Source: Candidatus Eisenbergiella stercoravium
GTDB lineage: Bacteria; Bacillota; Clostridia; Lachnospirales; Lachnospiraceae
Length of the DNA: 64,000 nt
Assembly: GCA_019113175.1 (NCBI GenBank)
Contig: DXHY01000016.1
Span: forward strand, 1 to 64,000
Reading direction: 5' to 3'
Position 1 is the first letter of the stretch; every line of letters begins with the position of its first letter. Of the stretch, positions 4,317 through 7,683 are shown piece after piece. The notes beneath the pieces are model-generated. The model saw only the letters and a program-made list of their open reading frames with translations, was not told the origin of the DNA and searched no databases. The translations under genes were made by a program, and so were the position numbers.

Positions 4317-5612
4317 CTACTTTATCATTTCCCTGTATAATACGAGAGTCGTCCTGAAAATATGGTTTTCCCTTTTCTGATCCAAAAAACCATTGTACTT
4401 TTGGATTGCATAGCGCACACTCTGAAGCCCTGTTCCGTGACGAACCCCTCTCCTTTTCGGTTTTGTCTCCGTCCGGTCATCCTGCGGATCCGGGCAGGTA
4501 TTTTCAATCACCCATACCATTCCAAAGGGCCTGTTCTCCAGCCGGACCCTGATCCAGCCTTTTCCTTCCATTTTCCCGCATGCTTCAATCGCGTTATCCA
4601 GCAGATTGGACAGAATGCTGCACCAGTCTCTGTCCGAAACAAAAGAATCCGACAGGTCATCCGATACTATTTTGAAACGGACGCCTGCGTTTTCCGCCTG
4701 GTATGTCTTACTTCCCAGTATGGCGTCCACGACCACACTGCCCGTGTGGAAGCTTTGCCTGATATTACAGTAATCCTCCTGTAATTTATCGATATAATTC
4801 CGCGCCCTGTCCGCTTCCCCATTTTGTAATATGCTGTCGATCACGATCAGATGATTCCGGATATCGTGAACCAGAATGTCCCGTTCCCTGTCTCCCTCTA
4901 TCCTCTCCTGATATTTCTGTTCTGCGGCGTCGGCACGTTTTTCCAGCTCGTTGACTTCATATTTTCCTTTTTTTAAAATATAGGATATGGCAAGGATGAG
5001 AAGTATACAGATGTAGCCAAGCATTCCGAAGAATCCCTGCTTTAACACGAACAGCCTGTCCGGTTCAAAAAAGACCTGATCACAGAAGCCCAGGAGCAGA
5101 TGCTGGATAACCGGAACGATGACCAGCCTGTTTTCCATCATTCCATTTACCTCCAGACTTTGTTTCTGAACTCTGTATATTATCCAAAAGGCAACGGAAA
5201 CCAGCAGCAGCGACACTGCTGTGATTCGTATTTGAGGATAATTGATACCAAAATGTATCTTTATCATGGCATCATATCCGGCGCTGTATTCCACCGCAAT
5301 GAGCGCCATCAGATATAAAAAGTAAAGGCTCTCATAAAAGATACCGGCGACAGCAAAAGCGTCCCTCCATCTGATACGGTATCTCCATTTTGCCAGCAAA
5401 ACAGTCCCGGCAATTTCAAACAGCAAATACCAGCGTGAATAAAAAGCGATACTACACTGACAATATAACAGCCCAATCCATATCAATAAACAGATATTCC
5501 ACAGGACTTTTATGCCGCGCCGTAATTCTCTTTTTTCCGCCAGCTTTCCTGTCCACCAATAGGGAATGCAGATTTCCAGACAGCAGACAAATATCTCCAA
5601 GATTTCCTTCAT
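4317..5612 (-). CDS. AgrC-like sensor histidine kinase (GHKL)
   Basis: N-terminal multi-TM region; phosphoacceptor-like LVHDIRNHL; NLLDNAIEAC N-box; GTGLQSVR G-box. Confidence 0.92.
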   Translation of the reverse strand: MKEILEIFVCCLEICIPYWWTGKLAEKRELRRGIKVLWNICLLIWIGLLYCQCSIAFYSRWYLLFEIAGTVLLAKWRYRIRWRDAFAVAGIFYESLYFLYLMALIAVEYSAGYDAMIKIHFGINYPQIRITAVSLLLVSVAFWIIYRVQKQSLEVNGMMENRLVIVPVIQHLLLGFCDQVFFEPDRLFVLKQGFFGMLGYICILLILAISYILKKGKYEVNELEKRADAAEQKYQERIEGDRERDILVHDIRNHLIVIDSILQNGEADRARNYIDKLQEDYCNIRQSFHTGSVVVDAILGSKTYQAENAGVRFKIVSDDLSDSFVSDRDWCSILSNLLDNAIEACGKMEGKGWIRVRLENRPFGMVWVIENTCPDPQDDRTETKPKRRGVRHGTGLQSVRYAIQKYNGFLDQKRENHIFRTTLVLYREMIK

Positions 5613-5615
5613 TTT

Positions 5616-6176
5616 TCATCCCTGCCTGTCCGCCGCCTGATTCGCGCAATACATTCCCAGACGTTCTCTCACTTCCTGGATATGCTCTTTGCTTATGGTC
5701 AGTACGCTGCCGTTGCTCAGAAGCACCTGACGCGCATTGATCCTGTCTATATGCTCCAGATTGACGATACAGCCCCTTTCCACAAGCATGAATACGTTTC
5801 CGTCCAGCTCTTCCAGCACCTTACTGATTGCCTTCCTCTCCTGCTTTTCCTCCGTTTTCAATACAAAACGTACATTCTGATTCTGCTTGTAAATACAGAT
5901 GATATCATGGTACGGTACTTTTTCATATCTGGAATGGGTTCTTATCGTATAGAACTTCTTCTCATCCCTCTCCAGCTTTTGTAGAAGCCTGTCCATGACG
6001 TCCGGTATTTCTTCTTTAGCCATATCCTTCGTGATAAAATCAAACGCCCTGACCCGGTATCCGACTTTTATGAACTCTTTATGGACAGTCAAAAACACGA
6101 TATTCGTGGAATCGCTCAACTCCCGGATTTTTTCCGCAAGCTTCCTGCCGTCCATCTGCGGCATCTCGATATCCAA
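5616..6176 (-). pseudogene. LytTR-family response regulator lacking the N-terminal half of the receiver domain
   Basis: Begins LDIEMPQMDGRKLAEKIREL (the phospho-acceptor Asp loop) after a TGA seven codons upstream (HYSRKLDIEM). The upstream receiver half with the acidic pocket is absent. The C-terminus looks like LytTR (YHDIICIYKQNQNVRFVLKTEEKQERKAISKVLEEL...VERGCIVNLEHIDRI). Confidence 0.8.
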
Positions 6177-6211
6177 TTTGCGGCTATAATGTCATAAAAA
6201 GACCATTTTTG

Positions 6212-7242
6212 TCATTCAATCCTGTCGTCAGGTTTCGGATTTGACATGGGATCGGAAGATTCTGACCACTGCTTTTCAAGTGATATTCCCTTTACGACCT
6301 GAAGAATGCATTTCTTACTTTTTTCATGTAGATATGCCTTATTCAATTTTGCTTTTCTATATTGCAGATAGGACTCTTTTGTTACATCCATTAATAATTT
6401 TGTAAAAAAACGTTCCCAGCTTAAAAACTCTCTGCTGTCAATAAAGTTTTCAGGCTGTTCCAGAATATTCCTGACATTTTTTCTTCGATCAAACCTGAGT
6501 TTAAAATCAACCATTCAAAGGATTCCGGAAGATATAAGCATATATTTTTCTTTTCTTCCGCCTGCTTATGCAGTCGGTTCATCTCCGGACCGATTGCCGG
6601 TACATCTGCAATAACACAGACTTTTTCATCCCGTTTTTTTGCCAGAAGGCTGAACAGATTGGACTTACCCTTCGCGCTTTCGCAGGCGATTCCCTTATCT
6701 CTGCCAACAGCCGCAAAAAATTCGTATCCGGAATTAGAATCTTCTGTAATAATTATTTGGGGATTGACCGGCAAATTCCGTGTATCAGAATAAATTCGGT
6801 ACATCTGCTGATATACTTTTCTGGTATTCTGGTATTTTCCGGAAGAATGCAGGCCATAGATTTCCTCAACACTGTATGGCAGATTATACAGGTTTTCTCT
6901 GGTAATCAGGACAAAATAATTGTCCGATCCCTGAACGGACTCCGCAAATTCTTCTGTATTTATGAAAGCATTCTCCTCGTCTGTAAAAAATATATTTCCC
7001 GACGCATTTTCCAGAATCAGCTTCCAGTTCTGTCCCTCCAGCACTCTGCACTGCACATCGCAGATCACATCGACACCGCTGGAAGCTCCAAGATTTTCCG
7101 CCTGCCGCAGCATATTGATCAGGGTGGTTTTTCCCGTCGCGCTGTCTCCGAGAATCACCGTAATGTTCCGTCTGATCTCAAATTCATAGCGCAGTCTGTT
7201 ATTTTGTACAATGACTCTATGCTTCCCTTTCATCCGTTTCAC
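6212..7242 (-). pseudogene. P-loop ATPase partner of DUF4869 (similar proteins are often mis-annotated as 'translation initiation factor 2'); frameshifted near 6474-6485
   Basis: ITVILGDSATGKTTLINML Walker A and GNIFFTDEENAF Walker B-like motif. The frame at 6421..7242 continues in another frame (6212..6514: NVRNILEQPENFIDSREFLSWERFFTKLLMDVTKESYLQYRKAKLNKAYLHEKSK) with the switch at an A6 run. Confidence 0.75.
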
Positions 7243-7683
7243 CTACACGTATCTTCCCGCAATTTCAACAAATTCCGACATATTATGAACCATTTCTCCA
7301 GTGTTCAGAATTTTCGCCTGAAATTCCTCTTTTCCGAAATCCATGATATGTCGGAGATTGATGGTCAGGTCTTTCTGTTGGGCGATTCTTAAAATCCACT
7401 TTGCGCAGTTATCTCCGCATGCAGAGGCATTAAAGATTTTATTCGACTCATCAAACGCCATAAGAATCAGCGTCTTAACGCCTCCGGATAGCTCTTTGAC
7501 GGAAATGGGGCCCAGAACCGGACTGTCGATCAGGCGGCAGCTCACCACAGTTGACTTGTCCACATCCTTTATCATTTCCACAGAAAGCTTCTCCGTAATC
7601 CATTCATCCTCATATCGATTGTCAAACCAGGCAGGCGGATAATAGATCGCCTCATCCATTTTTCCCAGATAAATACTCAGCAT
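7243..7683 (-). CDS. DUF4869 domain-containing protein
   Basis: MLSIYLGKMDEAIYYPPAWFDNRYEDEWI...SPVLGPISVKELSGGVKTLILMAFDESNKIFNASACGDNCAKWIL...LRHIMDFGKEEFQAKILNTGEMVHNM, recognised from memory as the DUF4869 pattern. Its stop directly abuts the start of the ATPase gene. Confidence 0.85.
   Translation of the reverse strand: MLSIYLGKMDEAIYYPPAWFDNRYEDEWITEKLSVEMIKDVDKSTVVSCRLIDSPVLGPISVKELSGGVKTLILMAFDESNKIFNASACGDNCAKWILRIAQQKDLTINLRHIMDFGKEEFQAKILNTGEMVHNMSEFVEIAGRYV

Follow-up and report, generated by a model that had tools for sequence, protein, structure and literature searches.

The DUF4869–ATPase cassette of gut Clostridia, a candidate ABC-type ATPase divided between two genes

Layout and decay of the window copy

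The window, a stretch of 64,000 nucleotides from Candidatus Eisenbergiella stercoravium, carries on its minus strand a small gene (7243..7683) whose 146-aa product is a member of Pfam family PF16163 (DUF4869), which it matches over residues 13-141 with an E-value of 2.9e-59 and 199 bits, the gathering cut-off being 28.9. The ORF of an ATPase starts at 7242, the base right after the end of the DUF4869 gene, with no gap between them. This 273-aa ORF (6421..7242, minus strand) is the 5' part of the ATPase gene up to a frameshift, and comprises a P-loop module and the first part of a C-terminal module (C-module). The Walker A motif GDSATGKTT (7123..7149, minus strand) and, about 45 residues past it, the Walker B motif IFFTDEENAF (6964..6993, minus strand) both lie upstream of the frameshift. 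The abutting genes and the two Walker motifs had been recognized in a preliminary description of this DNA, and they were located here as described.

Within the C-module, ITEDSNSGYEFF (6715..6750, minus strand) contains the invariant E-D of this acidic module and may correspond to motif 1 of Toprim domains. The second acidic motif, IADVPAIG (6589..6612, minus strand), reads D-V-P instead of the D-G-A that is invariant in 75 ATPase relatives. The reading frame breaks beside a run of A (6477..6482, minus strand), and the conserved C-terminal part of the gene, SWERFF ... YRKAKLN, is found in another frame as a separate 100-aa ORF (6212..6514, minus strand), identified by phmmer comparison with relatives. 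Where the gene is intact, in relatives, it is one uninterrupted ORF of about 309-343 aa. The ATPase copy in the window is a decaying pseudogene, and with this gene broken the two-gene cassette occupies the span 6212-7683 as three ORFs; the preliminary description had the span right, and the gene it placed there is not intact. Programmed frameshifting was considered and rejected, as other copies are broken at differing places by diverse frameshifts, stops and deletions. A second DUF4869–ATPase pair lies on another contig of the same genome (C82), and its ATPase match has no internal stop.

Next to the cassette, at 4317-6176, is the gene of a LytTR response regulator that lacks its first ~47 residues through a deletion; a GHKL sensor kinase and an operon for an ABC transporter are its neighbours. 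The deletion junction maps to 6176..6189 (no strand), and positions 6189-6219 match the cassette-end scar in a genome of the same genus (L181), where spoIIIAH is followed by the scar and then by an intact regulator. Truncation of the regulator by insertion of the cassette was rejected on this comparison, and since the regulator of L181 is intact beyond the scar, the truncation is attributed to a deletion of its own (junction 6176/6189). Two other loci of the genus retain part of the ATPase gene (L182) or part of the DUF4869 gene (L183), and these differing remnants indicate that decay set in independently several times, the window copy being one case; the cassette has decayed or been deleted repeatedly at one site across sister species. 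Protein identity of the remnants is slightly higher than DNA identity (93.7 vs 91.0; 87.0 vs 85.6), which suggests that decay came after a period of purifying selection. The earlier view of a degenerated stretch beside a truncated regulator is upheld, with the additions that the truncation is the regulator's own and that the decay reaches the ATPase gene, which had been missed.

Pairing, distribution and mobility

The association of the two genes was assessed at 80 loci picked by the ATPase profile alone, DUF4869 not being used in the selection. A DUF4869 gene adjoins the ATPase gene in 79 of them, and the remaining locus (L123) starts at a contig edge; at L088, DUF4869 lies at 5548-5994, just upstream of the ATPase match at 6001-6951. 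Across 200 genomes of the family, a comparison by eye of ATPase places with DUF4869 places showed DUF4869 near every one of the 33 ATPase places that were strong and testable, at a distance of ~1.6 kb in one case (G130:C33). Pairing is obligatory for the ATPase, far beyond chance and close to absolute, and the recurrence proposed in the preliminary description, including the adjacency it suggested counting, is borne out. Both gene orders were seen, and no natural fusion of DUF4869 with the ATPase was found among the 80 loci. In a mirror-tree comparison the distance matrices of the two proteins correlated with r 0.77, against a null maximum of 0.15, a coefficient to which shared descent adds. 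DUF4869 genes occur by themselves in a few cases (L044, L058, L061), and broken ATPases lie next to readable DUF4869 genes in the window and at L052, L054, L057 and L066.

PF16163 was detected in 39 of the 200 family genomes (~20%), in up to 13 copies per genome. The genome with 13 matches (G111) holds fused as well as three-gene types (see below), as if collecting variants (L040, L054, L057, L068, L223, L230, L234, L235, L238, L240, L246, L247). Relatives of the ATPase occur in Lachnospiraceae, Oscillospiraceae, one Selenomonadaceae and one Treponema genome, and no cassette match was obtained in 198 other genomes sampled across the phylum.

Cassette copies are present on the Ruminococcus albus plasmid pRUMAL02, typed as conjugative, and on two more records listed as plasmids, one of them from Agathobacter, which may be chromosomal or a chromid since it has proS and sporulation genes aboard. 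On pRUMAL02 (L250:2593-6996), a short DUF4869 gene is followed ~3 kb on by an ATPase deposited as 'translation initiation factor 2', with an IS21 transposase pair between them and recombinase genes in the vicinity. On an IMG/VR contig (L249:8700-12055), a cassette is flanked by two fragments of tyrosine recombinases that share 86% identity over 108 residues, and it lies next to apparent phage head genes, according to our reading of the ORFs of this contig; a stop interrupts the ATPase of this cassette. The cassette is an accessory, mobile element, as the preliminary description had supposed.

The 133 immediate neighbours scanned are diverse, and no recurrent third neighbour gene of the fused-type cassette was found among them. 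Defence genes make up a few percent of these neighbours, as a raw count: type I restriction-modification genes (HsdS, HsdM), one JetD and one reverse transcriptase. Enrichment in defence islands is not claimed on such a raw count of few genes. The preliminary description had proposed tabulating genomic contexts; plasmid and prophage-like carriage came out of this, and the neighbours are mostly ordinary genes. Cassettes lie beside HsdS (type I restriction specificity) genes at L083, L146 and L222, and in the set L072-L151 four neighbours belong to PF09820 (AAA-ATPase_like) and four to PF08011 (PD-(D/E)XK), among the commonest families there. No family in the PADLOC models matched beyond weak P-loop similarity. 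The patchy, multi-copy, plasmid- and prophage-borne and repeatedly decaying occurrence of the cassette does suggest a role in conflict.

Complementary motifs and predicted folds

ATPases of the ABC/SMC type normally have Walker A, signature and Walker B on one chain. In the cassette these motifs are distributed in a complementary manner between the two proteins. Walker A is present in all 75 ATPases and a matching Walker B in 74, at a spacing of 45-46 residues as opposed to 104-119 in ABC domains; none of the 75 has an ABC signature within 60 residues after Walker A, and the combination of the three motifs that defines a single-chain ABC ATPase is lacking in these proteins. Conversely, LSxGxK occurs in 61/61 close DUF4869 proteins and Walker A in 0/61, and of 50 diverse DUF4869 proteins one matched a loosely defined Walker A pattern. 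The LSGGxK element, which is similar to the signature of SMC and Rad50, is represented in the window by LSGGVKTL (residues 65-72; 7468..7491, minus strand), resembling ABC/SMC signatures and located at the start of a predicted helix (67-77). The most conserved positions over the 50 diverse proteins are F20, D42, S66, G68, K70, C89, G90 and N92; the family-wide conserved G90 and N92 fall in ACGDNC (residues 88-93; 7405..7422, minus strand).

Since no sequence homology of DUF4869 to solved structures was found, fold and profile comparisons were used. The AlphaFold2 model of DUF4869 has a pLDDT of 95.9 and a pTM of 0.89, and all 50 PDB matches listed by Foldseek are ABC transporter domains, ABCE/ABCF proteins, an SMC head or Septu PtuA, each of them weak (E 0.006-0.06, TM 0.29-0.41). 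In a viral library, the top named matches of the model were ABC, SMC, Rad50 or ATP-dependent endonucleases. When DUF4869 was compared with ABC domains by hhalign, ELSGGVKTLILM (ELSGG) fell on the ABC signature and LRHIMDF (residues 110-116; 7336..7356, minus strand) on the H-switch region, with a score of 28.7 that none of 300 column shuffles exceeded (maximum 27.3; reversed profile 12.8). A broader DUF4869 alignment scored 27.3 against ABC domains, above all 200 shuffles (maximum 21.0), and scores against OLD/AAA_21 sets were not outstanding. Taken as scores, with an hhalign probability of 11-20%, these results hint at homology to an ABC half-domain; the case is made chiefly by their agreement on the region of the signature, where a motif present in all DUF4869 proteins coincides with the ABC signature. 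Taken together, the model and the profiles make it likely that DUF4869 is an ABC half-domain bearing the signature.

For the ATPase, the model of the Eubacterium sp. An11 protein (L075) has a pLDDT of 83.5 and a pTM of 0.80, with mostly low values at residues 120-151, and the P-loop module is ABC-like by profile comparison (Prob 94). The modules of this protein are separable: in the window type the P-loop module is fused to the C-module, whereas distant PF16163 members are found in sets of three separate genes, in more than one gene order, encoding a DUF4869-like protein (~150 aa, with LSTGCKT), a P-loop protein (~130-165 aa) and a C-module protein (~190-275 aa). The Walker B glutamate is absent from the three-gene relatives (IDNAD).

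Acidic residues of the C-module are conserved across fused and separate forms: E164 and D165 in 34/34, E240 and E274 in 33/34, and D210 in 30/34, with N in the other 4. Acidic motifs of Toprim domains come in a set order after beta strands, and those of the C-module follow beta strands in the same order in the model; the E and first D of Toprim are kept, and the second D of DxD is not conserved. From this motif order and predicted topology we infer that the C-module may be a Toprim domain. Profile comparisons with AriB and OLD Toprim sets gave weak matches, for which reason the Toprim/DUF4435 match was kept as an indication only, and no Pfam match to DUF4435 was found in fused or separate C-modules. 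In a structure search with the whole ATPase model, the OLD nuclease 6p74 was the second match, with a poor TM, and several other weak matches were receiver domains and designed Rossmann folds.

Proposed mechanism and comparison with known systems

We propose, with a probability of roughly one half, that the two genes of the cassette each encode part of one ABC-type ATPase, the signature being supplied in trans, and that this ATPase drives an effector that is possibly Toprim/OLD-like. The larger protein would be the P-loop half, with Walker A and Walker B and without helical subdomain or signature, and DUF4869, itself without a P-loop, would give the LSGGxK signature. The two would pair head-to-tail to form a composite site in which Walker A of the larger protein and the signature of DUF4869 enclose ATP, and a trigger of some kind would open or close the pair. 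The likely output would be the acidic C-module, with its conserved E, D, D-or-N, E and E, most probably as a metal-dependent Toprim/OLD-like nuclease; a nuclease activity is, in our judgment, somewhat favoured. In outline, the unit would work as PARIS AriA/AriB or the OLD nucleases do, in conflict with phages or of another kind. The cassette is probably an accessory or anti-phage device, and the chances of a defence role appear evenly balanced. More tentatively, the cassette may represent a conflict system of gut Clostridia that as yet has no name and comprises two or three genes: a P-loop subunit and a signature subunit, DUF4869, would together make up a minimal ABC ATPase, accompanied by an acidic effector module, and the nucleotide site would exist only when the subunits meet. 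Instead of the plain sensor/effector pair envisaged in the preliminary description, the evidence favours a single ABC-type ATPase in two halves that complement each other, plus a putative effector module.

The close pairing could also be that of a toxin-antitoxin-like system, in which the ATPase with its C-module is harmful and DUF4869 neutralizes it, with no need to complete an ATP site. In keeping with this explanation, the ATPase never occurs without DUF4869 (79/79, and 33/33 testable places), some DUF4869 genes do occur without the ATPase, and broken ATPases lie beside readable DUF4869 genes. However, the most conserved element of DUF4869 is a motif resembling the ABC signature and its fold search returns ABC ATPases, features that a plain antitoxin would not need, which makes this alternative unlikely as it stands; it would fit our favoured explanation if DUF4869 restrained the enzyme as well as completing it. 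Somewhat doubtful is an ATP-driven switch without a nuclease, in which the C-module would be a signalling domain, similar to receiver or Rossmann domains, and something else would be regulated by the cassette. The unconvincing Toprim profile matches, together with the receiver domains and designed Rossmann folds among the whole-model matches, agree with such a switch, whereas the conservation of E164, D165, D210, E240 and E274 in fused and separate forms, the Toprim-like order of the acidic motifs and the match to 6p74, though poor in TM, argue for the nuclease.

That the pair does chromosomal housekeeping, in translation for instance, is highly improbable. The one pointer to it is the name 'translation initiation factor 2' deposited for one member, a label that the preliminary description had called unsupported by the sequence; no IF2 domain is among the Pfam families matched by 20 cassette members. 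A housekeeping role is also at odds with presence in ~20% of the family genomes, with up to 13 copies, and in 0/198 other genomes of the phylum, with carriage by a plasmid typed as conjugative and by a prophage-like contig, and with repeated decay or deletion at one site in sister species. If the divided-ATPase proposal is true, DUF4869 would gain its first mechanistic role, a misleading database name would be corrected, and attention would be drawn to a defence-like system of two or three small proteins outside the PADLOC models. As the ATP site would form only when the halves meet, the cassette could also provide a simple means of studying how effectors driven by ABC ATPases are kept in check and triggered.

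The literature searched for DUF4869 or for a divided ABC ATPase gave nothing relevant, and the Pfam entry PF16163, of which the small protein of the window is a clear member, assigns no function and leaves the partner out. Septu PtuA and SMC heads are among the fold matches of DUF4869, and LmuB of Lamassu and PtuA gave weak P-loop matches to the cassette; however, in PtuA, LmuB and the SMC/Rad50 heads one chain makes up the ATPase, coiled coils or helical domains are present, and the effectors differ. In the OLD nucleases, including GajA of Gabija, the ATPase likewise precedes an alpha/beta domain that bears acidic motifs. In contrast to them, the cassette ATPase is about half as long, its chain lacks the signature and the helical subdomain, it has an obligatory small partner, and the second Asp of the Toprim DxD is not conserved.

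PARIS consists of the ABC ATPase AriA and the Toprim tRNase AriB, which are sometimes fused (PMC12409363, PMC10568477). AriA is one complete ABC ATPase chain, whereas the ATPase of the cassette would be divided, with the signature on DUF4869; AriA matches the cassette weakly, at the P-loop (E 0.21), the C-module has no significant profile match to the AriB-like set, and by sequence the cassette does not belong to PARIS, which is defined by AriA and AriB (DUF4435) homologues. Nevertheless, PARIS and the cassette are alike in combining an ABC-type ATPase with an acidic effector module, fused or in separate genes, and in being accessory.
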